NCBI GenBank assembly: GCA_030618495.1
Contig: JAUXDE010000018.1
Location: forward strand, 1 to 19,991
DNA: 19,991 nucleotides
Source: Clostridia bacterium
Lineage (GTDB): Bacteria; UBA6262; WVXT01; JAUXBS01
Direction: 5' to 3'
Below, in pieces: positions 5,300 to 19,991 of the stretch (the stretch's first letter is position 1; each line of letters begins with the position of its first letter). Below the pieces are notes generated by a model. It had not been told where the DNA came from and did not search any database. It saw only the letters and a program-made list of their open reading frames with translations. Position numbers and translations under genes: made by a program.

Positions 5300-6250
5300 T
5301 TATTTAAAAGAGATGTACTTGATTTTTATCGGTTCTGAAAACAGAAATTCCTTTTTACCGGAGTCTTTTGCGAATACTTCAAGAAGAGCCCTGTACTCGC
5401 CCGGCTCCACCATTCCTCCATAGGAGTCCCTCTCGTCCCAGACACAACTCCCCTGCACCCCCTCTTTTGCAGGTTCCCTGTCAGCCATGCCGGACTCTTC
5501 ATTGAGCAAAGTTCTTACCAATTTATCCCTGCCGTAAATCCTTATGGATGCGAACGCCCCGGATGGAACCGAATAATCAATCACCAGGGGCGGAATCATT
5601 GAATTCAGGATTCTCATGCTTACAAGTTCCTTTTTAATCCCAGGCACGCGGCTGTTCTTTGCCCCGGGAGTGCCGTTTATTGATTTTTCTTTTTTGTCAA
5701 TACCGTTTATTACCGCGCCCTTATTGGTATGCCAGTTGTCCCGGGCCCTGCCGGAACAGGCAGGATCCGTTCTCTCCATTGAGTAACACGGCTTTTTCTT
5801 TACTCCCGCATACCACGGCTTTCTTATCCTTCCAACCACATCAATAACCCTTTTGTTTCCGTTCTTCAACGTAAGCTTTTCACCTTTATCATTAAGATCC
5901 ATAATTGGACTGATGAAATCGGCGGGAATATTTCTTATACAGTCATCGTCTTTTTCAATAAGGAAGTACCCCTTTGCGGGGATAATCCCGCTGATACCCG
6001 TAATGAACTGATTGGCGCTCCCGTAACTCTCATCTTCTATTGACCAGTTATCCAGGCAAACCGGATATCCCGTATTGTTAAATAGTTCTATCCATTCATC
6101 GCCGCCCCCCCCTCCAGCCGTGCCCATCCAGGCAATTTCGTTAATAACAACATCCCCTCTTTCTGTTCCGTACGCCCGGTTTAACGGCAGGAAGACAAGC
6201 ATGATACTTGGTATAAATAAGACCGCCAGCAATTTCTTTTTCTTTCGCAT
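5300..6250 (-). CDS. Secreted lamin-tail domain protein with FlgD-Ig-like C-terminus
   Basis: This 316-residue protein starts at ATG 6250, four nt after the HAD stop codon, so the two are probably co-transcribed. A lysine-rich start and hydrophobic segment (residues 1-27) form a signal peptide. Residues about 33-140 match the lamin-tail domain (VVINEIAWMG, DEWIELFNN, then GYFLIEKDD and LTLKNG), a beta-sandwich found in secreted bacterial proteins. The C-terminal 90 residues (SIRIYG, VRTLLNEESG, CVWDERDSYGG, PGEYRALLE) resemble the FlgD-Ig fold used as a terminal module in many surface proteins of related phyla. An 8-base C tract (poly-G in the mRNA) encodes part of the GGGGG run at residues 46-50. 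The function is unknown; a surface-associated role is inferred. Confidence 0.85.
   Translation of the reverse strand: MRKKKKLLAVLFIPSIMLVFLPLNRAYGTERGDVVINEIAWMGTAGGGGGDEWIELFNNTGYPVCLDNWSIEDESYGSANQFITGISGIIPAKGYFLIEKDDDCIRNIPADFISPIMDLNDKGEKLTLKNGNKRVIDVVGRIRKPWYAGVKKKPCYSMERTDPACSGRARDNWHTNKGAVINGIDKKEKSINGTPGAKNSRVPGIKKELVSMRILNSMIPPLVIDYSVPSGAFASIRIYGRDKLVRTLLNEESGMADREPAKEGVQGSCVWDERDSYGGMVEPGEYRALLEVFAKDSGKKEFLFSEPIKIKYISFK
6105..6112 (-). repeat. Poly-G8 tract in the lamin-tail gene
   Basis: Eight consecutive C on the plus strand (G in the mRNA) lie near the 5' end of the coding region, within codons for the glycine run at residues 46-50. Tracts of this length can slip. A one-base change would truncate the protein soon after the signal peptide. 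Confidence 0.6.
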
Positions 6251-7039: not shown

Positions 7040-7411
7040 CTACTTTAACCGCTGATTCACATACTCGGAAAGTAAAACCCTTTCTTCCTGTGAGATATCC
7101 TTGAAGAATATTCCAAGAATATCACCACCCTGGTCCTTCCTCATCCACATGATTTCTCCCATGGTTTTAATAGACCTTCCCATGTCGGGTATGTCTATTT
7201 CCACATCAACGCGCCCCTTGCTTTTATACACCTTTTCCATGGCGTCCTCTTGAAGCAAAGACATCTCCATGCAAAGCCCCCCGGCGCTTATATCCCTGCC
7301 CGATGCTTCAAAAACATGCATATCATCCTGCCCGTTTTTAATCTTGAATTTAATTGGGAATTTAACTTCCAACCTTGGATGTTTTCTTCTATTCATACCG
7401 GAATAAGCCAT
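7040..7411 (-). CDS. PilZ domain protein, probable c-di-GMP effector
   Basis: The 123-residue product is essentially a single PilZ domain. It has both c-di-GMP binding signatures: RxxxR within NRRKHPR (R9-R13) and DxSxxG as DISAGG (D40, S42, G45). The remaining beta-barrel includes GEIMWMR and LGIFFKDIS. It starts at ATG 7411 one nt after the receiver gene's TGA, with AAGGAG at good spacing, so translation is probably coupled. No signal peptide or membrane helix is seen, so it is cytoplasmic. In well-studied flagellar systems the PilZ protein YcgR binds the rotor or stator and brakes the motor on c-di-GMP. Its place beside a motor/sensory cluster suggests a comparable role here, by inference. 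Confidence 0.92.
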   Translation of the reverse strand: MAYSGMNRRKHPRLEVKFPIKFKIKNGQDDMHVFEASGRDISAGGLCMEMSLLQEDAMEKVYKSKGRVDVEIDIPDMGRSIKTMGEIMWMRKDQGGDILGIFFKDISQEERVLLSEYVNQRLK

Positions 7412-7412
7412 A

Positions 7413-7811
7413 TCATTCTCCTTTTTTTAGACTTGCAACAATCTTGTCAAGTAACTCCTTCGGGGTAAAAGGCTGGACTATATAGGCGTCAGCCCCTTCC
7501 TGCAGAGCCCTCATCAATTTCAACTCATTCCCCTTACCGGAAACACACAGCACGGGAATTTCCTGAGTTCTTTCCTCCTCTTTTAATTTTGTAATAACAT
7601 CTATAGTATCCATGTTTTCGAGCGCTATGTTCATAACTATTATGCTGGGCCTTCTTTTTTCTATCAGGCTCATCAACTCCACTTCATAGGAAGTAACCTC
7701 CACCCTATAGTAATTTTTTCTCAGCAAAAAAGTTATCAACTTTATTATGCCGGGATCGTCTTCGGCAACCAGCACTCTCAGGGAACTTTCCATTCTATAA
7801 CTTGCAGCCAT
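7413..7811 (-). CDS. Degenerate (pseudo-)receiver protein
   Basis: A stand-alone response-regulator receiver fold of 132 residues, with ATG at 7811 (an internal ATG at 7793, residue 7, is also possible; neither has an ideally spaced ribosome site). The acidic pair (AEDD, residues 17-19), beta3 strand, switch Ser (S91) and the overall alpha/beta pattern are visible. However, the phospho-accepting Asp is Asn (N61 in IIVMNIALENMD) and the invariant Lys is Gln (Q113 in YIVQPF). Both are read directly from AAC and CAG codons. Classical aspartyl phosphorylation is therefore unlikely. It lies between a normal double receiver and a PilZ gene, 12 nt after the former. It may act as a constitutive or allosteric adaptor. 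Confidence 0.9.
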   Translation of the reverse strand: MAASYRMESSLRVLVAEDDPGIIKLITFLLRKNYYRVEVTSYEVELMSLIEKRRPSIIVMNIALENMDTIDVITKLKEEERTQEIPVLCVSGKGNELKLMRALQEGADAYIVQPFTPKELLDKIVASLKKGE

Positions 7812-7823
7812 CCTTTCTTGAAA

Positions 7824-8561
7824 TTATGACTCTTTGATTATTTTAGTTTCCTTATAATCCTCGATGAGCTTCAACAACCGGTCAATATCAACCGGCTTGC
7901 GAAGGTATGCAATTGCCCCCTTGTTTATCGCTCTCCCCATTAAGATATCGTTATTGTGAGCGCTCATAACTATTACTCCCGTACCCGGGCTGATTTCCTT
8001 AATCCACTCCAGCGTTTTAATCCCGTCTATTCCGGGCATCATAACATCAAGAAGAATAATATCAAACTTTGAATGTTGTATCAGTTCCAGCCCTTTATAC
8101 CCATCCTCGGCCTCACTAATTCTATACCCCTTGTTATTAAGAATATCATTTAAAGTGGTTCTGTCATCTTCACTATCATCAACAATAAGTATTGACAACC
8201 TTTTCAGTATTCCTTCTATAAGAATATTGAGTTTGGGAATATTGATGGGCTTATATATTACAGCATAAGCCCCTTCCCTCTTGGCTTCTTCCAGTAATTC
8301 ATCCACGGAATACCCGGTCATCATTATAACTTCGGATGCCGCGCTGACCTTTTTTATCTTCCTGAACGCCTCAACCCCGCTCATCCCGGGCATCTTAACA
8401 TCCATGAGTATAATGTTAAAATACTTTTCCTTTGCCATTTCTATTGCCTTACTCCCGCTGCTCGCCGTAAAAACATTATACTCACCGGCCTCAAATATAT
8501 CTTTCAGGGTTTCCTGTGTATTCAACTCATCATCTACAATAAGAAGATTGAACTCTTCCAT
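7824..8561 (-). CDS. Tandem double-receiver response regulator
   Basis: Two complete receiver domains are joined with no output domain (245 residues). REC1 (about 1-120) has acidic pair D10-D11, phospho-Asp D54 (ILMDVKMPG), T82 and K104 (YKP). REC2 (about 122-240) has D128-D129, phospho-Asp D172 (LLDVMMPG), S200 and K222 (RKP). Both look competent for phosphorylation. AAAGGA lies about seven nt before ATG 8561. Without a DNA-binding or enzymatic module it probably works by phosphotransfer or protein binding, and the histidine kinase upstream is its likely partner. It is the first gene after the promoter at 8694-8722. Confidence 0.93.
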   Translation of the reverse strand: MEEFNLLIVDDELNTQETLKDIFEAGEYNVFTASSGSKAIEMAKEKYFNIILMDVKMPGMSGVEAFRKIKKVSAASEVIMMTGYSVDELLEEAKREGAYAVIYKPINIPKLNILIEGILKRLSILIVDDSEDDRTTLNDILNNKGYRISEAEDGYKGLELIQHSKFDIILLDVMMPGIDGIKTLEWIKEISPGTGVIVMSAHNNDILMGRAINKGAIAYLRKPVDIDRLLKLIEDYKETKIIKES

Positions 8562-8755: not shown

Positions 8756-10564
8756 TCAAACCGGCAGTCTGATTATGAATGTTGCCCCCTTGCCTCCCCT
8801 ACTCTCCGCGCTTATTGCCCCGTTGCACCTGTCAACAATTCTTTGAACAACAGCAAGCCCGAGGCCTGTCCCCTTATTCCTTGTTGTAAAAAACGGCTTG
8901 AATATTTTATTCATATTCTCTTTTGCAATACCTGCTCCTGTATTGGAAATGGTTATCAGCGCCACGCTGTCCCCCTGCTTGAACTTTAAAAGTTCCCTGT
9001 CCCTATCCAGGGCTTCTTTTATGTTATACTTCATTATCCTGGTTTTCTTCGTATTTATCGTAAGCGTGCCCCCATCGGGCATGGACTGGCAGGCGTTATC
9101 AATAATATTTATAAACATTTCTCTCGCCTCATCAGGGTCAACCATCGCAAGCAATTTATCCTTAATATTTTCCTCAAGAGATATATTATCAGGAATACCG
9201 ACTACCTCGACGGATTCTCTTATAATTGCATTAATATCGTTCCTGTTTAGTTTAACAGCCCTTGTCCGCGAATACCCCAGCAGGTCGGAAACAATCTTAT
9301 TTGACGCGGCAACTTCCCTTTCTATAATGCTTAAATGCTTGTCAATCTTGGGATCTGAATGGTCGAGTCTTGTCTTGATATAATAAACAGCATTGTTTAT
9401 TACACCGAGAGGATTACGGATTTCATGGCCCACCACGGAAGCCATCTGCCCAAGCGCCGCCATTTTTTCCTTTGCAACAAGCTCATCCTGTGAACTTCTT
9501 ATGTTTTCCGCCATGAGATTAAAAGTATTTCCAAGGATTAGCAGTTCATCGTGGGTCTTGATATTTACCTTCTGTGACAAATCTCCCTTTCCAAATTTTT
9601 CGACCACAGCCGTTAACTTCCGGATAGGCCTTGTCATGCTGACTGACAGTAATACTGCAACCAGGATGGAAACGATAATCGTAATCAGAATCCAGAAAAC
9701 AGCGCTCCTTTTCATGCGGACAAGGGTTCTATACGCCTCATCTTCTGATTGTTGCACAATAACACCCCACTTCAGGCTATTTGCTTTTGCGAAAGCTCCA
9801 ACCATTTTTTTTCTGTCATCATCATGGTAATCAATGAATTCCATTGAACCCGCTTCATTCCCCCCGAGAATTTCCTTAACAATGTCCATATGGCTTACAT
9901 CTTCGAGGTTCAGGGCCCTGTCGATGTCAGGATGATATATAATTTGACCGTCCCGGTTGACCAGGTACACGAAACCCGTGTTGCCTACCCTGATTGAACT
10001 AATATTTTTCCACAGGGCAGTTAGCGTTACGCTTACAAACACATACTCCTTCTGCCTGTTTAACGGGTAAACGATATTAATGCGCGGAAATTTTTCCTGG
10101 TAGTACAGGGGCCCGACGCTGGGCCTGCGCGTTCGGGCGGTCTTGCTGAAAGCCGGGTCAGCGCCCCGGCTTACCAGCACATTGCTTTCATTACTGAAAT
10201 CAGTATTAACAACCTTGGTCAGTTCCATGCCTTTCTTATCAAGCATTGAAATAATAATAAAATCATCATTCGCCTTGAGCGATGACAACAGGAATCTCGT
10301 CCTGTCTTCCCATGAAAGCTTGGGAAAAAGTTCCATTGCCACGGCAAAATCCATGTTCAGGTTAAGGCCTGCAATGTATTCATCGATATACGAAGCCAGG
10401 GATGAGGCAATGCGGGAGTGAACCTCCTGCTTGATTGTATTCTTAAAAACAGGACTGTTAATACTAATCATCTTTATCCCCTGGAAAGCCAGAGGGACAG
10501 TTGATATTAATATCATTGTTATGATAAACTTGTAGAAGAGTTTGATGGTCGGTCTTTTTCGCAT
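8756..10564 (-). CDS. dCache-HAMP sensor histidine kinase
   Basis: This 602-residue inner-membrane sensor has TM1 at about 12-32, a periplasmic double-Cache ligand-binding region at about 40-280 (GPLYYQEKFPRINIVYPL and TGFVYLVNRDGQIIYHPD are typical), TM2 at about 287-309 and HAMP at about 310-362. HisKA carries phospho-acceptor H380 (GHEIRNPLG). The HATPase has an N box (NIIDNA, N490), a G1 box reading SNTGAG (540-544) and a G2 box GTGLGL (565-570). The G1 Asp is Asn541, a variation seen in some kinases, so activity is probable but not certain. dCache domains usually sense small molecules such as amino or organic acids. It starts at ATG 10564, 13 nt after the second MotB gene, which places sensing next to the motor. 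Confidence 0.93.
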   Translation of the reverse strand: MRKRPTIKLFYKFIITMILISTVPLAFQGIKMISINSPVFKNTIKQEVHSRIASSLASYIDEYIAGLNLNMDFAVAMELFPKLSWEDRTRFLLSSLKANDDFIIISMLDKKGMELTKVVNTDFSNESNVLVSRGADPAFSKTARTRRPSVGPLYYQEKFPRINIVYPLNRQKEYVFVSVTLTALWKNISSIRVGNTGFVYLVNRDGQIIYHPDIDRALNLEDVSHMDIVKEILGGNEAGSMEFIDYHDDDRKKMVGAFAKANSLKWGVIVQQSEDEAYRTLVRMKRSAVFWILITIIVSILVAVLLSVSMTRPIRKLTAVVEKFGKGDLSQKVNIKTHDELLILGNTFNLMAENIRSSQDELVAKEKMAALGQMASVVGHEIRNPLGVINNAVYYIKTRLDHSDPKIDKHLSIIEREVAASNKIVSDLLGYSRTRAVKLNRNDINAIIRESVEVVGIPDNISLEENIKDKLLAMVDPDEAREMFINIIDNACQSMPDGGTLTINTKKTRIMKYNIKEALDRDRELLKFKQGDSVALITISNTGAGIAKENMNKIFKPFFTTRNKGTGLGLAVVQRIVDRCNGAISAESRGGKGATFIIRLPV

Positions 10565-10577
10565 TTTATTCGAATTC

Positions 10578-11255
10578 TTACTTCTTCGTTATGACATTTA
10601 TTTCAATCCGCCTGTTCCTTGCGCGGTTTTCGCTGGTATCATTCGCATACTTTGGACTGTACGCCCCGTACCCTATTGCAGACAGCCCCGCCGGTTCTAC
10701 GCCCAGGCTTATAAAATACCTTACAACGCTGAAAGCGCGAGCCGAGGAAAGCTCCCAATTGGATTTGTATTTACCGTTACCGCTCACCGGTATGTTACAC
10801 GTGTATCCTTCAACAACCACCTCGTTATCCGTCCCTCCTATAAACCCAACCACGTCTTTCAATATGATTTTTGCTTTATAACCGAGTTCCGCCTCGCCAA
10901 GCCTAAAAAGGACAGGATTCCTGAGAGTAATTTTCATGCCTTCTTCATTTATTATCACGTCAACGAATTGTTTCAATCCCTTGTCTTCAAGGGCCTTCTC
11001 CATGTCTCCCACTTTTTCCATCTGAAGGATTTCTTCCAACTTTTCAGTAGTTTTTTCTCCACCGACATCCTCCTGCATGCTCGAAAGCGCCTCTTCGTAC
11101 TGCTTTTTGTCAAGCATGTGCGTGTAACCGTAAAGAACCAGGAACAAAATCATAAGAACCGTCATCAGGTTGCCGTAAGGAACCATCCACGTGCTTTCAA
11201 AGCTTTCTTCGAAGTTTTCAATTAATTTGACTTCTATATTGCTCTGTTTTTTCAT
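10578..11255 (-). CDS. MotB-like stator paralogue lacking the ion-binding Asp
   Basis: The 225-residue protein has MotB layout: a short cytoplasmic N-terminus, a single TM helix (about 25-44), a linker, and an OmpA-like domain (about 105-222). The region is recognisably MotB (SNWELSSARAFSVVRY, ENRARNRRIEIN). At the site where MotB carries its essential ion-carrying Asp, this protein reads PYGNLMTVLM, so the residue is N29. In the OmpA domain the peptidoglycan-contacting Asp of the usual GHTD motif is Cys (GYTC, C153), though the downstream Arg (R173) is kept. Both changes are clear in the codons (AAC, TGT). The gene starts 21 nt after the canonical MotB gene. It may be a structural, non-conducting partner in a mixed stator. 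It is not a pseudogene by reading frame. Confidence 0.9.
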   Translation of the reverse strand: MKKQSNIEVKLIENFEESFESTWMVPYGNLMTVLMILFLVLYGYTHMLDKKQYEEALSSMQEDVGGEKTTEKLEEILQMEKVGDMEKALEDKGLKQFVDVIINEEGMKITLRNPVLFRLGEAELGYKAKIILKDVVGFIGGTDNEVVVEGYTCNIPVSGNGKYKSNWELSSARAFSVVRYFISLGVEPAGLSAIGYGAYSPKYANDTSENRARNRRIEINVITKK

Positions 11256-11276: not shown

Positions 11277-11984
11277 TTAGTGCGATACTCTTATTATATT
11301 AACTTCTATCCTGCGATTTCGTGAACGGTTATCCTCGGAATCATTCGAAACCAAAGGCCTGAATTCCCCGTGGCCAAGCCCTGCCAGCCTTTCAGCATCC
11401 AGGTGTTCCTTGTCCCTTAAATACCGCACGACACTGAAAGCCCTCGCCGCAGATAGTTCCCAGTTTGACTGAAACTCCTCATTATGAATCGGCAGGTTGT
11501 CGGTGTGTCCCTCAACAACTATCCTGTTCGGTATATTTTTGACCAACTTGGCAACTTCATGCAGTATCGGGAAACTTGAGTTCTTAAGCTCGGCTTTACC
11601 CGAGCTAAAAAGCACGGGGCTGCTCAGCATTATGCGTATCTTCTGTTCGTTTATTTCAACCTGGGCATCATCTTTCAGGGTATCCTTCATCTTTTCAGAC
11701 AGTTCTTCCTCGCTTGCCTTGACTGCTTCCTTAGTCTCGGGTTCCTCAACCACTTCACGTTGTTCATATGCATCAACGGCTTTGCCAAACTTATTTTCTA
11801 TAGATTTCATAATTGTTGATTTCTCATCAATTGAAAGGCGGGAAACCGCAAAAAGCATCAGGAAGAAAAGCATGAGGTTTGTCATCAGGTCAGCGTATAT
11901 GGTAAGCCATATACGCTCACCGCTTTCCTTGATTGTCGTAATGAACGAAAGTAATACTTTTTTCTTAGGTTTATCCGCAGCCAT
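11277..11984 (-). CDS. motB: MotB, canonical stator subunit with OmpA-like peptidoglycan domain
   Basis: I choose ATG 11984, four nt after the MotA stop, giving 235 residues. A TTG at 12023 would overlap MotA by 35 nt. With this start the ion-binding Asp falls at D32 (YADLMTNLMLFF), the same number as in E. coli MotB. One TM helix (about 28-49) is followed by a charged linker (about 55-110) and an OmpA-like domain. That domain includes the peptidoglycan-binding GHTDN (D162), NWELSAAR (R181) and NRRIEVN. With MotA it would form the ion-conducting, wall-anchored stator that turns ion flow into torque. It sits between MotA and the Asp-less paralogue, which shares the same domain order. Confidence 0.95.
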   Translation of the reverse strand: MAADKPKKKVLLSFITTIKESGERIWLTIYADLMTNLMLFFLMLFAVSRLSIDEKSTIMKSIENKFGKAVDAYEQREVVEEPETKEAVKASEEELSEKMKDTLKDDAQVEINEQKIRIMLSSPVLFSSGKAELKNSSFPILHEVAKLVKNIPNRIVVEGHTDNLPIHNEEFQSNWELSAARAFSVVRYLRDKEHLDAERLAGLGHGEFRPLVSNDSEDNRSRNRRIEVNIIRVSH

Positions 11985-11988
11985 AGCT

Positions 11989-12756
11989 TTATTTTGTTTT
12001 CTTACTACGCAGTTTGTAGGCAAGAAAAGCTTCTAATTTCTTTTTAACCAGGATGGGTATCTCCCCTTCCTGTATAGAAAGTATTCCTTCAATCACCACT
12101 TCCTTGAGCAGCAACTCATCCTCACTGTGAACGGTTAACTTGGCTGCGACGGGAAGGAAAATGAAATTTGTGCCAAAAATACCGTAGAATGTGGTTGTAA
12201 CGGCAATAGCCATGGACGTACCCATGGCTTCAGGGTCACTCAGGTTCCTGAGAACCTGGACAACTCCTATCAACGTCCCGAGCAAACCGAAAATAGGCGC
12301 ATAGGTCCCCATGGTACGGAAAATACCCGATACCTGCTGGTGCCTCTTCCTTGTGAATATGATTTCCTTCTGCAGGTTCTCACGAATCACCTCGGGGTCA
12401 AGGTTATCAACAACCATCTGTATGCCGTCAATCATGAAACGATCCTTCAGCCTGCCTATCTCATTCTGAAGGCTGTCAATGCCGTTGCGTTTTGCGCTCT
12501 CTGACATCTGCAGCAGGGTGTTAATCGTTTCCGACGGGGTATTGCTTCTTGAAGGAAAAAATATCATCATCAAAGCCTTCGGAGCAATCTTAAGAACCTT
12601 GAAGGGATAACTTATCATCGTCGCCGCAAGGGTGCCGCCAAAAACCAGTATAGCCGCGTTGGGATTAAGAAGCAAAGCCGTTATCCCTCCCGCATTCATT
12701 ACATAATAAACTGTTCCCAATCCTAGTGCTAATCCGATAACGGTCATTAAATCCAT
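11989..12756 (-). CDS. motA: MotA/PomA-type stator subunit
   Basis: The 255-residue protein has the MotA/PomA four-helix layout: TM1 about 4-20, TM2 about 33-51, TM3 about 150-170, TM4 about 182-205. A large cytoplasmic loop lies between TM2 and TM3. Conserved prolines are P154 (YAPIFGLLG) and P202 (FLPVAAKL), matching E. coli P173 and P222. In the rotor-facing loop, AKRNGIDSLQNE aligns without gaps to E. coli KSRQMGMFSLER: R90 becomes K89 (or the adjacent R90) and E98 becomes Q97. TLIGVVQ and TTTFYG keep the threonines found in Na-driven PomA. AGGAG sits nine nt before ATG 12756. An 82-nt gap separates it from the FliF-FliG gene. Confidence 0.95.
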   Translation of the reverse strand: MDLMTVIGLALGLGTVYYVMNAGGITALLLNPNAAILVFGGTLAATMISYPFKVLKIAPKALMMIFFPSRSNTPSETINTLLQMSESAKRNGIDSLQNEIGRLKDRFMIDGIQMVVDNLDPEVIRENLQKEIIFTRKRHQQVSGIFRTMGTYAPIFGLLGTLIGVVQVLRNLSDPEAMGTSMAIAVTTTFYGIFGTNFIFLPVAAKLTVHSEDELLLKEVVIEGILSIQEGEIPILVKKKLEAFLAYKLRSKKTK

Positions 12757-12838: not shown

Positions 12839-14500
12839 TTATTTTGATTTCCGCTTTCTCTTTACGGGTTTTCCCTCTTTAATCTCAGCCTTATCCGGGA
12901 CAGGGGCTGATTCTTCTTCATTTTCACTCTTTTTCCTGACTTCGATTTCACCTTCTTTTTCAAGTTTTCTAACCACCCTGACAATTTGATGCTGCGCGTC
13001 TTCTATCTTTTTCTGGGACATGGGCCTTCCCAGTTCAATTTCCTGTTTTATCATTGATGCAGCGCCTTCCGAGATTTTATCGTAAATCTTATCCCTGAAG
13101 TCTTCACTAACATCCCTCAATGCCTCACCTAAAATATCAAGATTGACCTCCCTTAAAACTCTTTGAAGGTCTTCCGTGCCTAAACCAATTACGTTTTCAA
13201 ATGTAAATAATGATTTTTTTATCCTTTCGGCAAGCTCGGGGTCTTTCTTCCTGAGAAACTCAAAGATCTCATTGCGGGTAGCTTTATCCGACTGGTCAAG
13301 TATTGCCGAAAGACGGTCCGTACCGTCAACGATAAAATCGATTTTTTTCTTTATATCCTTGTTAATAACCGCCAGCTGACGGGGCGACATTTCCTTTGAC
13401 ATTGCCAGCATGGTTGTAACCTCGCTTTTCTTCTCGGAAGGAAGCGACGCCAGCACCTGTCTTGCATACTCCGGATCAAGAAAGGCAAGAACCATTGAAA
13501 TGTTTTCTGACGACTCTTTCTGCAACAGGTATACCAGGTGGTTTAAATTCGAAGCATCAATATAATTGAACGGCTCTTTTAGATCCTCTTCATCTCCAAC
13601 CCTCTTCTCAACGATAATTCTTTCAACTTCCTTATATCCTCCGCCCCGGCCGCCGGCCGCCTCGCCGCCCGCTCCGGGTAAAACACCGCCCTGTCCGGGC
13701 AACTGGGCATTGCCTCCTATGTTAACTTTGGTTTCCCTTGGCGGCGCTAATTGCAATACTCTTGCAAGACCCCTTGTGAAGAACCTGATAGGGAAAAAAG
13801 CGAACATGAACAGAAACAGTAATGCCGCTGTCCAGGTAATATACGGCGGGAACTTATTTATTTCGGCCAGAACTTTTTCCACCTGGGTCAGTTCGGGCGG
13901 TGGAGCAGGCTTGGCAAATGCATACTTGCTGATTTCAATGGAATCACCGCGCTTGTAATCAATTCGCAGGACCTTCTCTACCAGCGCCCTGGCTCTACTT
14001 ACATTATCATCACTCGTGGTCTCATCAAGCAGTATTATAACACTTAACTTTTTTACCAGCGATTCAGGAAGCCTTACGGATTTCCTGTGAGTCGTACGTA
14101 CATCTACGTTCTCTTCAACCACGACTTCTGATTCAACTCCGAGTTCCGTTTTAACCGGAACTCCGGGAAGAGTCCATTTCTTCTTTTTTTTCTTCTCCCC
14201 CTTTACGGCTTCACCTATCTTCTCCCTGGTAACCTGTTCCGTTACTATTTCCTCGGTATCGGGTGTAACCGTTACAACCACGTCCACGTTCTCTATTCCC
14301 AGGACCTTTTTCAGTTTTGACCTGAGACTGTCTTCAAGCAGTTTTTCATACTGCATCTTCTCCTTAAGAACAGCCGCATAATCAACTGCCCCGGCCTGCC
14401 TGATTCCGCCCGGGAAACATGCAAACAGGGTTACCGTCAAACTTGCAAGTAAACAATATTTCAAAGAACTTATCAAATATTTCCGGTCACCAATTACCAC
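12839..14500 (-). CDS. FliF-FliG fusion: reduced MS-ring/rotor switch protein
   Basis: A single 553-residue frame joins two flagellar rotor proteins. After an N-terminal signal or anchor (about 12-30), residues about 45-195 match FliF ring-building motif 3: paired strands around a lysine-rich loop (102-108), then KKLSVIILLDE and the diagnostic RGDSIEIS. A TM helix (219-241) and a Gly-rich linker (about 260-288) lead to FliG middle and C-terminal domains (about 315-520: DPELAERIKKSLFTFENV, LQRVLREV, DAQHQIVRVVRKLEKEGEI). FliF RBM1/RBM2 and the FliG N-domain are absent. The FliM-binding EHPQ motif reads ESSE (329-332). Torque positions equivalent to E. coli K264/R281/D288/D289/R297 are R462/G479/Q486/E487/S495. 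The GTG start overlaps the PorV stop by seven nt, with AAGGAG ten nt upstream. Confidence 0.9.
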   Translation of the reverse strand: MVIGDRKYLISSLKYCLLASLTVTLFACFPGGIRQAGAVDYAAVLKEKMQYEKLLEDSLRSKLKKVLGIENVDVVVTVTPDTEEIVTEQVTREKIGEAVKGEKKKKKKWTLPGVPVKTELGVESEVVVEENVDVRTTHRKSVRLPESLVKKLSVIILLDETTSDDNVSRARALVEKVLRIDYKRGDSIEISKYAFAKPAPPPELTQVEKVLAEINKFPPYITWTAALLFLFMFAFFPIRFFTRGLARVLQLAPPRETKVNIGGNAQLPGQGGVLPGAGGEAAGGRGGGYKEVERIIVEKRVGDEEDLKEPFNYIDASNLNHLVYLLQKESSENISMVLAFLDPEYARQVLASLPSEKKSEVTTMLAMSKEMSPRQLAVINKDIKKKIDFIVDGTDRLSAILDQSDKATRNEIFEFLRKKDPELAERIKKSLFTFENVIGLGTEDLQRVLREVNLDILGEALRDVSEDFRDKIYDKISEGAASMIKQEIELGRPMSQKKIEDAQHQIVRVVRKLEKEGEIEVRKKSENEEESAPVPDKAEIKEGKPVKRKRKSK

Positions 14501-15519
14501 CAGTCATCCGCTCCTTCTTCCTGCCCGGCTCCGAAGTTCGCCTTGAATGAAGCCCTTATGAGAGAACCCATTTCCCCCATCAAACCGATCCCGAAATCAA
14601 CCTGGAAACTACTGAAACTGACACCGAAGCCACCGGTAAGCGCTATCGTTTTCGGACCGTCATTAATCCTCATTCCGCCTCTTATCGCAATTCTGACATT
14701 CATTGCTTCAAAGCCCCCCTCCACGCCGAGGTTTGCTTTCATGGAACTGTCATTTGGCAGTACCACGTCACCGGCTATTATTACACTGTTGCTATCTCCG
14801 TAGTATCCCCCAAACCTCTTAGTGAACATCGCCCCCCCCCTGATTGCCATAGGCAGCTCATCCGCATCCTCATCGCTTGTTCCCTCAAGGTATTTCATCT
14901 TATTGCCAATCCTTAAGTTCATCAGGCTCGCGCCGATTGTCAACTCGGTTACGTCCTCATAAATCGGCCTGAACAGCCCCCCGATATCTATCGCGAAACT
15001 GGAAGCGTTGTATGTCTCCACAAGCGTGGAATTAATTATCTTGAACGCAAGCCCCGCTGATATGTTTTCACTGACATCCATTCCATACCCTGCCGTAATC
15101 AAGATAGAACTCTGGGCGCTCTTCGTTTCCGAATTTAAAAAGGAACCGTCATCATGGGTTGTATTAATCTCTATATCACCCGCGCTCAACATGGCAAAGC
15201 TCCCGCCAAAAGTGCCGAGACTCCCCGTAGGCAGAGACGCCCCGAGAAACTGCGAGCTCACGTTCGCCAACCCTATCATGTGCATGGCTACCAACTCTAT
15301 CTTACCCAGGTTCGCCAGTCCCGCCGGGTTGTAGGAAAGCGTATTTATATCGTCCGCGACCGCCGTAAATGCGCCGCCCATGCCAAGCTGCCTCGCGCCC
15401 ATGGTCTGTTTCATGATTATAGCGCCGCTCTTCGACAAAGTTCCTGAAAAGCACGGCGCGGCGGCCGCCGTAATCGCAGCCGTCAGCATAAATAAAATTC
15501 CAATCCTGTTTTTCCTCAT
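14494..15519 (-). CDS. PorV/UPF0164-family outer-membrane beta-barrel protein
   Basis: The 341-residue protein has a signal peptide (about 1-26) and then the family hallmark at residues 41-70: GARQLGMGGAFTAVADD followed by LSYNPAGLANL. Alternating hydrophobic beta strands continue to the C-terminus (for example ITAGYGMDVSENISAGLAFK and ALTGGFGVSFSSFQVDFGIGL). PorV belongs to this family and shuttles cargo in the type IX secretion system; many members in other phyla lack known roles. Its ATG overlaps the TGA of the FN3 gene by four nt and its stop overlaps the FliF-FliG start, so the three are probably translated together. A nine-base G tract lies in the coding sequence. An outer-membrane channel or carrier for the upstream surface protein is a reasonable inference. 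Confidence 0.9.
   Translation of the reverse strand: MRKNRIGILFMLTAAITAAAAPCFSGTLSKSGAIIMKQTMGARQLGMGGAFTAVADDINTLSYNPAGLANLGKIELVAMHMIGLANVSSQFLGASLPTGSLGTFGGSFAMLSAGDIEINTTHDDGSFLNSETKSAQSSILITAGYGMDVSENISAGLAFKIINSTLVETYNASSFAIDIGGLFRPIYEDVTELTIGASLMNLRIGNKMKYLEGTSDEDADELPMAIRGGAMFTKRFGGYYGDSNSVIIAGDVVLPNDSSMKANLGVEGGFEAMNVRIAIRGGMRINDGPKTIALTGGFGVSFSSFQVDFGIGLMGEMGSLIRASFKANFGAGQEEGADDWW
14832..14840 (-). repeat. Poly-G9 tract inside the PorV-like gene
   Basis: Nine consecutive C on the plus strand (G in the mRNA) encode part of AIRGGAMF about two thirds into the protein. It is the longest homopolymer G run I noticed in the window and lies in an outer-membrane protein gene. Slippage would truncate the barrel and could disturb coupling to the downstream FliF-FliG start. 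Confidence 0.6.
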
Positions 15520-18500
15520 TTTACCACCACAATCTTCTTAGTCGCGCTTAACCCCGGAGCTTCTATGTGAACAAGGTAAACTCCGCTGGCAACCATATCG
15601 CTCTCTATATCCCATTCCTGGCTGTAAATCCCCGCATCTTTGCTCTCATCGTCAACCAGCGTCTTCACAAAATCGCCAAGCAGGTTATATATTTTGATTG
15701 TAACGTTCCCCTCATCCTTCAGTCCGTATTTTACCGACGGGTTTAAGTTTGACTCTCCTAATTTGTACACATTGTTCCAGCAGGAAAATTCCGGCTCATC
15801 AACTTCATAAGTAATCGAAAACGCCGAACTGCCCGCCGACTTGTTGCCCGCCGCGTCATAAACATAAATAGTTATGTTCACGGTGCCCACAAGCGGGTAG
15901 TAGTCGGAAATATTTACAATCGTAATCGTTCCGCTGATATTACCGCTACCGCTGTCTATGGTCAGGTCATTCGTATGAGTTGTCGTGCCCGTAGCAAGAG
16001 CCGATACATGTCCCGATGCAATATAACGGTTTATCACGTTGCCGTCCTGGTCCGTGATTACCACGGAATCACTCTTGATTTGAGCTCCGGCTTCCGCCGA
16101 GCCGGTTACCGTAAGCGTGTATCCCCCGTCAGCAAGCCCCTTCTTGGTCATAGATACGTTCTCCGGCTTTGCCGGTACAACAAGGTCAACTGTGATGCCG
16201 TCGCTGTTATCGGAATAATTAGAGTCTTCCGCGTAAAGCCCCATGAAGTTCCTTGCCTTGACACGGGCGTAGTAGGTCTTGCCGTGCACACAGCCGGTAA
16301 TATTATAAGTCAGCGCGCCGTCTCCCGCGTAACTGTTGAACTTTTCGCTGCCCCCCGGCACGGTGCTGACCTGCAGCAAGAATCCTTCAATATGACTCTG
16401 ATCATCAACAGCCGCTCCCACCTGCCAGGTGAAGGTTACCGTGCTGGATTTTGACCACTCGTCGCTTGTCGGCTTTATAGGTTTGCCCGTGGGTTTAGTA
16501 TCATCAACGAGACGTATACCGTTGGAACTTACGACGTAAGTGCTGACAACTTCAAGATAGTTCCTTGCTCTCACGTTAACGTAGTAAGTAGCGCCCCAAT
16601 TCAAAACACCGGGCAGATTAAAAGCGTTAGGAGTAAAAGCAACGCTGGTAGAGATGAAATCATGATAACTCCCCGTCCAGCCGTACACCTTGATGCTGCC
16701 GGGCGCGGTACCGATGGAAAAGTCATAACCGTCTATGCCGCTTTCCTCAACAACCACAGACCAGCTTATATCTAACTGCGAGTCATCGGGTGTTTCAGGA
16801 AGATCAGAACCTAATCCATCATAAACGTTAGACGGGGCGAGGGGAGGAGTTATATCCATGGTTATTCCGTAATTAGAGTGCGTGCTGGAAAACAAACCGT
16901 AAAGCCCGGCACCGTTAAGCGCCGCCACGCGCGAATAGAACGTATTACCGTTGCTTGTTGTGGATATGTATATGTCCTTTGACGTTACATTCCCGACATC
17001 CCCGGAAAACTCTATTCCCGGACCCCAATAATTAACATCCGTGCTTACCTCAAGGTAATAACCTATGACGCCCGATTGACCGTCAGTCGCCCCTGCCGAG
17101 GACCAGCTAAACGGGATGGTACTCTTGCCGATATAATAGTCTCCGTCAACCTTTTTTATGGACGAACTATAATACTGCGGGTCTTTTTCTCCCGGGGTTC
17201 CGTCCGGAACCGTTAAATCAACTAAAACTCCGGCAGTAAAGGTTGTATAATCGACCCCGTACAAATCAGCGCCGTTAACAGCCGTTACACTCGCGTAATA
17301 CGTCTGATTGTGCTCACAGCCCGTTATGGTATATGAACTCACATAAACAACGCCCGACGTTAACATGACATCAAAACCCGGAAACGTTGATACCCTAACA
17401 TGATAACCCGAAATACCGCTCTGGGCATCAATTACCGTGCCTGTTGACCAGCTGAACGTTATGGTGGATTTGCCGATGAAGTAATCCGTGTAGAAATTAG
17501 GATAGGGTATACCCGGTTTACCGCCGGGAGGAGATTCATCCACCTGGATACCGTTTGAGCTTGAATAATCAACCGAATATTGTCCCGCCCCGTTTATAGC
17601 AAATATCCTTGCATAGTACATCACGCTTTCCGTTAATGAAACAGTAATAGTGCCCGAAGAGGTATCCTTGCCGTCATAATAGAAATCCGCGGAGGTAATA
17701 TCATTGATACCCTCAAAACCATTGCTTGAACTGACTATCAGATGATACCCCACGATGCCGCTGATATTATCGGATGAATCCCCTATATTCCATTCAAAAT
17801 CCAGGGTGCTCTTTGAACACCAGTCACCCCCATCATCGAGACCGCCCGGGCTCCCTGTTGGTTTTGATATATCAACTATGATACGCTTGCTTAAGCTGCT
17901 CCAACCATCACCCTCATCACTCTCCAAGCCGGCCCCATTAATGGACTTGATTTTAGCTTGATATTTCTCGCCGTCTACACCTGCGGGGGTACAGGTTGAC
18001 GTTACCGCTCCCGGATAGAAAGTAAACGGGTCTTCTTCAATCTCCAGCTCTATCCGTAATCTATAACCCGTTACCCCGCTCACCGTATCGGTAGCCGCAT
18101 TCCAGCCAAACCATAAAGTTGTTGAACTTGAATAAACAATATCGCCATCAATACCAGTGGGTATGAGCCATATACCAGTGGGTACTGTCGGTGCGGTGAT
18201 ATCTATGGTAACACTGCCCGTTGCCGGGCTCAAATCATATAACCCCGCGTTATTTTTTGCCGTGATTTTGAAGTAATACTGCTGGGTATCGGAGAAACCG
18301 CTAAGTTGTTTTGTGGTCGCATTAACTATGTATGCCGAGGAAACCAGAACGCTGTAACCCGGACCATCATAAACTTCAAGTTTGTAGCCGTTTATTCCGC
18401 TCTCGTCATCCTTTACACCACTTACCGTACCCGTTGACCAGCTAAACTGAACATCATCTTCTGAACTGCTGTAATCCCCGGGAGAAACGATTACAGGCGT

Positions 18501-19991
18501 TCCGAGAGGAGTAGTAGTGTCAACGGTTATACCGTCAGTAACGTTGGTTGAGGTGGTAGTGAAAACCCCGGCGCCGCTCATGGCGCTTACCCGGGCAAAG
18601 TATGTTTTCCCGTTTTCAAGTCCTGCTACGGTTCCTGTTGTCTTTCCAACGACTATTGATTCGCTAGTCGTTAACCATGAAGTGCTGCTCTCACTCACCT
18701 CAAGTTTATAACCTACGATGTCACTCTCAAGGTCTTCCGAATCGCCATTATCCCAGTAAAACTCAGCATCAGCCGAACCAAAAACATGGCCTCCGTCATC
18801 TATGTTGACAGGTCTTCCTGTCGGCGTTGTGGTATCAAGCTTCACGCCGTCGGAACGTGAGTAAGAGGGCTTGAACCAGAGCGTCTGGACATTCGTTAAG
18901 GTATCTGTATTACTGTGAACAATAAGCCAATCATCGCCGTTCTCATTATACCCGTTGGATATCCCGACCGTTGCGGAAAGATTTTCATTTCCCGTTCCGT
19001 AGTTGAACTTTATATACCTGTTCTTATATAGGACAATTTCGAAGTTCACTGCCGTGCCGGAGGGATTCAGATGTCCCTGCCATCGTATAGTTGCTGAATT
19101 AGTATCTGAAGAAACGTATATATCATCCCCTGCTTCGTCAAGAATCAAGTCATCCCATAACGGCGCAATCATAATCCTGTCCTTAAGAACTTCAATACTG
19201 TTAATCCAGCCTGTATAGGAATTTTCAAAAGTAATGAAACCGTTCGTGCATATATAAGCAGTGTCATAGGGTTTGCCGTAGAAATAAAACGTGAACGGCA
19301 GCGAGTATTCATAGTAGCCATTATTGTAGTCCGGGTCCCATGAAGAGTTTTCCGCTATTCCGCTTCCAGAATACCCGTTATCAATGAAGGTCGTAGTGTA
19401 TCTCTCTAGGGATTCCACGTCATTGTTGTCAAATGATTTCACTGTCACATAATAAGTAGTCCCGTAGGAAAGACTCAAACCTGTTTTCACCACGTATGTA
19501 TCGGTATTTACGCTTGTCCAGTCAGCAATATTTGTTGCTCCCGGAGTCAAACTGCCCATTGCATACCAGTAGGAACTCACCCCAGAAACAGGCTGCCAGT
19601 ATGCCTTAAGAGTTGTGCTTGAAGAGTTGAAATCCAGATCCACCGCAGAGCAACCCTCGTTCACAATTATTTTGGTTGAAACCACATATACACCCTCACT
19701 GTTGTTCGAAAAATTACTGTACGTACCGCCAAAACCCCATGCACGGACACGGGCATAGTATGTCTCTCCTTCCTCGCAGTTGGTAATGTCCTTGCTCCTA
19801 ACAAAACCCAGGTACCCGGCATACTTGTCATTGCCGCCTTCTGTCGTTCCAACCTCCAAATGGAACCCTAGAATCTCATCATAGGGCTGAACGTCATCTT
19901 CAGACCAAGTAAAATTTATGGTCGTGGAGTTGGGATACAACGTTCCCTCGGATATTATTGGATTGCCCGTAAAAGCTGCATAAAGGTACAG
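15516..19991 (-). CDS. Giant FN3-repeat surface protein with FlgD-Ig/T9SS-like C-terminus, 5' end beyond the window
   Basis: The frame is open to the right edge (at least 1491 residues). The TTG at 19940 sits inside an FN3 repeat and is not the real start. About ten FN3-like modules are visible, each with a Trp near strand B and a closing pattern such as YYARVxAxNGAGxY. Between the second and third lies a nidogen-like domain (about 18870-19385: LPFTFYFYG, CTNGFITFEN, APLWDDL, IRWQGHL, FEIVLYKN). A further Ig-like domain precedes the C-terminal module (NLNPSVKYGL, VTIKIYNLLGDFVKTL, SGVYLVHIE, KKIVVVK). That module matches FlgD-Ig and type-A T9SS sorting domains in style. It is probably an exported adhesin-like fibre. 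The ATGA overlap with the PorV-like gene, and the motor genes beyond, suggest joint function in surface display or movement. Confidence 0.92.
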   Translation of the reverse strand: MYLYAAFTGNPIISEGTLYPNSTTINFTWSEDDVQPYDEILGFHLEVGTTEGGNDKYAGYLGFVRSKDITNCEEGETYYARVRAWGFGGTYSNFSNNSEGVYVVSTKIIVNEGCSAVDLDFNSSSTTLKAYWQPVSGVSSYWYAMGSLTPGATNIADWTSVNTDTYVVKTGLSLSYGTTYYVTVKSFDNNDVESLERYTTTFIDNGYSGSGIAENSSWDPDYNNGYYEYSLPFTFYFYGKPYDTAYICTNGFITFENSYTGWINSIEVLKDRIMIAPLWDDLILDEAGDDIYVSSDTNSATIRWQGHLNPSGTAVNFEIVLYKNRYIKFNYGTGNENLSATVGISNGYNENGDDWLIVHSNTDTLTNVQTLWFKPSYSRSDGVKLDTTTPTGRPVNIDDGGHVFGSADAEFYWDNGDSEDLESDIVGYKLEVSESSTSWLTTSESIVVGKTTGTVAGLENGKTYFARVSAMSGAGVFTTTSTNVTDGITVDTTTPLGTPVIVSPGDYSSSEDDVQFSWSTGTVSGVKDDESGINGYKLEVYDGPGYSVLVSSAYIVNATTKQLSGFSDTQQYYFKITAKNNAGLYDLSPATGSVTIDITAPTVPTGIWLIPTGIDGDIVYSSSTTLWFGWNAATDTVSGVTGYRLRIELEIEEDPFTFYPGAVTSTCTPAGVDGEKYQAKIKSINGAGLESDEGDGWSSLSKRIIVDISKPTGSPGGLDDGGDWCSKSTLDFEWNIGDSSDNISGIVGYHLIVSSSNGFEGINDITSADFYYDGKDTSSGTITVSLTESVMYYARIFAINGAGQYSVDYSSSNGIQVDESPPGGKPGIPYPNFYTDYFIGKSTITFSWSTGTVIDAQSGISGYHVRVSTFPGFDVMLTSGVVYVSSYTITGCEHNQTYYASVTAVNGADLYGVDYTTFTAGVLVDLTVPDGTPGEKDPQYYSSSIKKVDGDYYIGKSTIPFSWSSAGATDGQSGVIGYYLEVSTDVNYWGPGIEFSGDVGNVTSKDIYISTTSNGNTFYSRVAALNGAGLYGLFSSTHSNYGITMDITPPLAPSNVYDGLGSDLPETPDDSQLDISWSVVVEESGIDGYDFSIGTAPGSIKVYGWTGSYHDFISTSVAFTPNAFNLPGVLNWGATYYVNVRARNYLEVVSTYVVSSNGIRLVDDTKPTGKPIKPTSDEWSKSSTVTFTWQVGAAVDDQSHIEGFLLQVSTVPGGSEKFNSYAGDGALTYNITGCVHGKTYYARVKARNFMGLYAEDSNYSDNSDGITVDLVVPAKPENVSMTKKGLADGGYTLTVTGSAEAGAQIKSDSVVITDQDGNVINRYIASGHVSALATGTTTHTNDLTIDSGSGNISGTITIVNISDYYPLVGTVNITIYVYDAAGNKSAGSSAFSITYEVDEPEFSCWNNVYKLGESNLNPSVKYGLKDEGNVTIKIYNLLGDFVKTLVDDESKDAGIYSQEWDIESDMVASGVYLVHIEAPGLSATKKIVVVK

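Follow-up and report, generated by a model that had tools for sequence, protein, structure and literature searches.

A gene that joins parts of two flagellar rotor proteins in one reading frame, next to genes for a MotA/MotB stator, raises the question of what kind of machine it belongs to and what that machine would move. The gene (positions 12839-14500, minus strand) lies on contig JAUXDE010000018.1 of an uncultured Clostridia bacterium (GenBank assembly GCA_030618495.1), in a stretch of 19,991 nt that was analysed as a whole and is called the window below. An earlier note, made without database searches, had read it as a natural FliF-FliG fusion lacking FliF ring-building motifs 1 and 2 (RBM1/RBM2), the FliF C-tail and the FliG N-domain (FliG-N). 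We found a single uninterrupted frame of 553 codons with GTG as its start codon. Pfam profiles, an AlphaFold2 model and fold search agree on its layout: a signal-like helix, FliF ring-building motif 3 (RBM3), a transmembrane (TM) helix, a Gly-rich linker, and the FliG middle and C-terminal domains.

The N-terminal hydrophobic helix (residues 7-37, positions 14390-14482; all features of the window are on the minus strand) is predicted as helical at residues 7-28, and a small-residue site precedes VDY (QAGA-VDY in the window fusion, AFA-VD in its relatives). Judged by sequence alone it resembles a putative signal peptide more closely than a first TM helix kept from FliF. RBM3 with a collar-type insertion comes directly after it (residues 38-196, positions 13913-14389): YscJ_FliF_C (PF08345) scores 29.7 bits on residues 63-195 (cut-off 23.8), and a sequence profile of the N-half alone matches FliF chains in the PDB with an E value of 1.6e-6. 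No profile for the N-terminal part of FliF (RBM1/RBM2) was matched in the fusion. A TM helix equivalent to FliF TM2 (about residues 219-243, positions 13772-13846) is supported by a hydrophobic stretch and by a model helix at 219-251. The FliF C-tail, which binds FliG-N, is missing; its place and that of FliG-N are taken by the Gly-rich linker (residues 252-308, positions 13577-13747), predicted by AlphaFold2 to be disordered (pLDDT below 50 at 252-305). The Pfam model for FliG-N (PF14842) reached 14.4 against a cut-off of 25, solely where it overlaps FliG_M. The FliG middle domain (residues 309-390, positions 13331-13576) matches FliG_M (PF14841) on residues 321-388 with 42.8 (cut-off 25) and the FliG-M crystal structure 3soh with Z 11.5, and the C-terminal torque-helix domain (residues 416-521, positions 12938-13255) matches FliG_C (PF01706) on residues 416-520 with 113 (cut-off 23.3; E 1.1e-32) as well as by fold.

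The AlphaFold2 model, built from an alignment of 44 fusion proteins, has a mean pLDDT of 74, with values above 90 in most of the domain cores; pTM comes to 0.42, and confidence in the collar insertion is low. Residues 38-193 form a helix-strand-strand-helix-strand core with the low-confidence insertion between strands 1 and 2, like FliF RBM3 and its collar. With a second structural aligner the RBM3 part matches the FliF S-ring at Z 13.7 (rmsd 2.1 over 101 residues), and the next folds outside FliF (OsmC, SpoIIIAG, PrgK) match the N-half at Z 8-9. Residues 300-521 match FliG at Z 19.1, and the FliG-C part matches FliG bound to MotAB (8ucs) at Z 14.5, rmsd 1.4 and 38% identity. Foldseek ranked FliG first (E 7e-12), followed by FliF S-ring chains. 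The domain content claimed by the earlier note is thus supported in what is present and in what is missing, including by the structure prediction of the two halves that it had named as a check.

It had also allowed that an assembly join or a missed stop between separate fliF and fliG genes would refute its reading, and the draft state of the genome (179 contigs) leaves room for this explanation. The same junction, with a conserved TM helix before the linker, occurs in independent assemblies of many species, so the fusion is neither chance nor a join, and we rejected this explanation, which keeps next to no weight. Fusion sequence is present in all six genomes examined from the window's phylum, some copies being cut by contig ends, and in Elusimicrobiota, where 153 of 340 genomes have a fusion-profile match at E 1e-8; 16 of the 153 matches do not reach 1e-45 and could be fragments or plain FliG, leaving about 137 firm ones. 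A scan of species genomes also found the fusion in Elusimicrobia MAGs. Later searches showed that it had picked up only a minor share of the fusion-bearing genomes, which makes the lack of matches elsewhere uninformative; the better guide is a set of 386 genomes that represents about 250 bacterial families, most of them by one or a few members. Within this sample, fusions turned up in the window's phylum, family f73 and one genome each of families f124 and f207; the remaining matches listed were ordinary FliGs of about 340 aa. The f124 and f207 loci carry a second FliG M-C protein beside the fusion together with giant exported proteins, and in f124 also MotA-MotB.

In a tree of FliG M-C domains (88 rows) a branch with 100/100 support parts all 61 fusions from 25 ordinary FliGs. 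The f124 and f207 genomes hold both a fusion and an ordinary FliG, each placed in its own group of the tree; the exact place of the f124 and f207 rows is unsure because of long branches. As the root was not inferred, a single origin of the fusions is the simplest reading and no proof. By these sequence comparisons the fusions form an old family that has two subtypes and spans four lineages or more. The earlier note's view that evolution has produced a covalent rotor stands as regards a natural fusion, with the correction that this is no one-off reduction; ring assembly and rotation remain inferences. Relatives in well over 100 genomes suggest an ancient, undescribed rotary machine, which probably serves to move or export proteins of the cell surface.

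Several side observations concern single loci. The window's own genome has a second fusion copy, split over two contigs (C51 end and C31 start) at an acidic low-complexity linker, with a 775-aa PorV-model match upstream and no MotA or MotB after it on the contig. In the two further lineages the separate FliG M-C protein follows the fusion (L128:7584-8360 and L129:9745-10422), as though FliG of two kinds were built into the ring. A record labelled Candidatus Sumerlaeota (L036, SLGR01000127.1) has a subtype B locus nested among Elusimicrobia in the tree and is likely a mislabelled MAG or contig.

Could the fusion be the remnant of a lost flagellum, or part of one encoded elsewhere in the genome? 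In favour of this, all rotor and stator parts are flagellar homologues. Rod, hook and flagellin genes are absent from the neighbourhood of the window, which bears out the earlier note's claim of no flagellar genes nearby, and FlhA and FliM/FliN were likewise not found genome-wide in any of the six genomes of the window's phylum by searches that recovered their positive controls. The fusion is conserved and duplicated over many genomes, and the two lineages that hold it beside an ordinary FliG keep that FliG among the flagellar ones. We therefore rejected the relict flagellum, to which we leave a very slight chance. FlhA was found in 5 of the 340 Elusimicrobiota genomes, and Elusimicrobiota were earlier noted to be without flagellar genes (PMC7031533). 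The fusion itself, the homology of its two halves to FliF and FliG and the non-flagellar status of the protein can be taken as nearly certain.

The fusion sits in a conserved operon, observed in the order giant sorting-domain protein, PorV-family protein, fusion, MotA and MotB, with overlapping genes in the window. As the earlier note had said, the stators are encoded directly downstream: MotA (11989-12756; PF01618, with the equivalents of P173, P222 and the basic residue 90 kept), a MotB with the ion-binding Asp at the D32 position and an OmpA-type peptidoglycan-binding domain (11277-12023; PF13677 and PF00691), and a second MotB of the same domains with Asn at that position, as also in order-level relatives (10578-11255). 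RNA folding of the gap between the fusion and MotA is unremarkable (z -1.57). Of about 39 loci, 31 have MotA downstream of the fusion and on its strand. Upstream sequence was usable at about 43 loci, and at 31 of them the gene next to the fusion on that side matches the PorV model; this profile includes TPR repeats, and the count may be too high. The window's own genome (98% complete) has a single stator gene of MotA length, which is the one in the fusion operon, and two shorter genes of ExbB/TolQ size.

Two subtypes can be told apart. In subtype A, to which the window belongs, the fusion is followed by MotA, MotB and a second MotB. The paired motB genes occur in the window and at loci L013, L014, L029-L031, L103 and L104. 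In all pairs but one it is the first MotB that retains the ion-binding Asp, the exception being L027, whose second MotB carries it; the second MotB has Asn, Ser or Asp at this position depending on lineage. The pairs suggest a mixed MotB dimer, or axle, with one ion site, which is inferred from these residues. Subtype B has the giant sorting-domain protein, a PorV with a TPR tail, a fusion with C-terminal TPRs, a proline-rich protein, MotA and MotB. The proline-rich proteins between fusion and MotA are 800-2100 aa long (for example L017:11042-14407 and L035:11106-15008), those of L017 and L027 have no Pfam family match, and they are probably cytoplasmic coiled-coil proteins, which we take to be reminiscent of AglZ of Myxococcus.

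Are the residues needed for torque retained? All 37 MotA sequences have Pro at the counterparts of E. coli P173 and P222, position 90 is Lys or Arg in 32 of 37, and the E98 position is Gln in 21 of 37. On the rotor side, the D289 position of FliG-C is Glu in 40 of 44 fusions, the R281 position is Gly in 36 of 44 and R297 is also lost; E125 of the EHPQ motif is kept in all 44 and the remainder of the motif is not. The charged residues of the torque helix of E. coli FliG are R281, D288, D289 and R297, and in E. coli motors the FliG/MotA charge pairs are rotor-stator contacts. Going by the aligned residues, one of the two known charge pairs is kept, and R281-E98 is mostly lost on both sides. That the fusion and MotAB form a functional ion-driven rotor appears very probable to us.

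What the motor drives is pointed to by conserved outer partners which the earlier note had overlooked: a PorV-family protein, a giant protein with a type IX sorting domain and an SprA homologue. The PorV/PorQ-family outer-membrane protein (14494-15519; NF033709, 109 bits, cut-off 90) overlaps the fusion gene. Upstream of it lies the giant protein (15516-19940), with fn3 repeats and a C-terminal type A sorting domain of the type IX system (TIGR04183, 29.9 bits, cut-off 23); its open frame of 1491 aa runs to the contig end, so it is probably cut at the N-terminus. TIGR04183 is above cut-off in 9 of 10 other giant proteins adjoining fusions. An SprA homologue, mostly of 1700-1900 aa, was found in 6 of 6 genomes of the window's phylum and 289 of 340 Elusimicrobiota genomes. 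The one in the window's own genome lies outside the operon, is 1759 aa long and scores 28.5 bits with PF14349 (cut-off 27); the SprA matches in the window's phylum fall below the curated NCBIfam cut-off.

Regulatory genes follow the stators. A dCache-HAMP histidine kinase, probably a sensor, lies directly downstream (8756-10564; Pfam) and has the same place and make-up in the relative at L013. Next come a tandem receiver protein with two Response_reg domains (7824-8561), a single receiver protein (7413-7811; Response_reg) and a PilZ-domain protein (7040-7411; PF07238, 50.8 bits), which we would guess to be a c-di-GMP brake like YcgR. A PilZ gene also adjoins the subtype B operon of L131. In the order-level relative, a receiver-GGDEF protein (L013:2441-4099) lies in the fusion gene cluster near the equivalent place of the PilZ gene, which suggests c-di-GMP control. 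Two further genes of the window encode a large exported protein of GH18 (chitinase-like) type, which also has CBM9 and Ig-like repeats and is truncated where the contig stops (3-4922), and a secreted protein with a lamin-tail domain (5300-6250; LTD, 51 bits).

We propose, with a probability of about 0.6, a non-flagellar, ion-driven MotAB motor with a rotor in one piece, which would act on a type IX-like surface system, most likely for gliding or attachment. The evidence that this is a motor is strong, though wholly computational and without experiment: it consists of the domain architecture, the operon, the distribution, the conserved motor residues and the lack of those flagellar genes that were searched for. 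Ring formation, rotation and output are inferred. Many copies of the fusion would form one ring, with RBM3 and the collar on the periplasmic side, a single TM helix from each subunit and FliG M-C on the cytoplasmic side. The MotA/MotB stators, anchored in the peptidoglycan through the OmpA domains, would push the FliG C-terminal helices and the whole ring would turn as one covalent MS/C ring. Its periplasmic face may hand the torque to a complex at the outer membrane, with the PorV-family protein and the giant type IX-exported protein among its members, a coupling that is inferred as well, and for which no part linking the ring to PorV was identified. The torque would most likely move the giant surface protein for gliding or attachment, and the neighbouring kinase, receivers and PilZ protein would supply control. 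In the MS ring, RBM1/RBM2 form the inner portion, which encloses the export gate; a rotor without them is in keeping with genomes in which no such gate (FlhA) has to be housed. Natural FliG rings sit on FliM/FliN; the loss of these proteins fits the absence of CheY switching, and it also leaves the stability of a fusion ring uncertain. Movement of an adhesin or gliding as the actual output, itself an inference, has in our judgement an even chance.

The same partners could serve export. If the motor mainly powered type IX protein export in place of GldLM, without moving adhesins, one would expect sorting-domain cargo, PorV and SprA to accompany the fusion, as they do, and the GldM profile had no match in 17 fusion-bearing genomes; that search found none in any control either and so lacks a positive control. 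In Bacteroidota, moving periplasmic tracks pull outer-membrane proteins, and export and gliding share one energisation mechanism (PMC12635249). SprA is present in 144 of 153 fusion-positive Elusimicrobiota genomes, but also in about 145 of the 187 without a fusion match, where export needs no such motor. The link to type IX export is therefore not exclusive, an obligatory type IX engine is weakened, and the motor probably draws on type IX export as a dedicated user, not as its general engine. A dedicated partner is also suggested by the giant protein that many fusion operons encode, and we consider export as the main task unlikely without setting it aside. An envelope machine derived from a rotor could also have a different output; it might, for example, sense load, serve as a polarity scaffold or position peptidoglycan or the outer membrane. 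This would account for the sensor kinase, the receivers and the PilZ/GGDEF genes found within the operon or next to it and for the large, probably cytoplasmic partner and TPR tails of subtype B. Against it, the stators are complete, their channel prolines are conserved and one MotB bears the Asp, all of which speaks for a motor that does work, and we hold such a machine to be improbable.

The proposed surface motor can be set beside four known systems. With the flagellar rotor and MotAB it shares RBM3, a TM helix, FliG M/C, the MotA prolines and the plug and peptidoglycan-binding domains of MotB; it differs in being one polypeptide without RBM1/RBM2, FliF C-tail, FliG-N, FliM, FliN and FlhA, in the changed charges of its torque helix, and in genes that sit with type IX-like surface genes. 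The Bacteroidota type IX/gliding machine likewise has a PorV-family protein, a sorting-domain giant protein, SprA and an ion-driven inner-membrane motor of the 5:2 class, which is GldLM there and MotAB with a FliF/FliG rotor here. A rotating FliF-type ring could do work similar to that of the Bacteroidota periplasmic tracks, with no connecting part identified. The Agl-Glt gliding motor of Myxococcus also ties a MotA/ExbB-class motor to the envelope and surface adhesion; to our knowledge it has no FliF/FliG rotor, and we know of the FliG-MotA gear from flagella only. Engineered FliF-FliG deletion fusions of Salmonella without most of FliG-N gave motile motors with smaller C rings (PMC7355467, PMC9389320). 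These are laboratory constructs in a complete flagellum with FliM/FliN, whereas the natural fusion, alike in joining FliF to a FliG without this part, also lacks RBM1/RBM2 and a flagellum. We found no published description of a natural FliF-FliG fusion rotor in full-text literature, laboratory fusions apart; subscription papers and preprints were outside this search. Whether type IX gliding is rotary in mechanism is still debated (PMC9389320).

We tentatively suggest, at slightly under even odds, a separate class of ion-driven rotary machine in several phyla, in which a one-piece FliF/FliG rotor and MotAB drive type IX-exported surface proteins; in one subtype the MotB pair would be mixed, with the ion-binding Asp missing from one of its subunits. 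A widespread non-flagellar user of FliG and MotA would show which parts suffice for rotation, namely RBM3, one TM helix and FliG M-C. It would provide a natural counterpart to the Salmonella deletion fusions and make the reasons for RBM1/RBM2 (export gate) and FliM/FliN (switching) testable. It would also link the flagellar motor to type IX gliding, if true as a functional merger of the flagellar motor with gliding/type IX machinery, and would offer a motility or export hypothesis for Elusimicrobiota.
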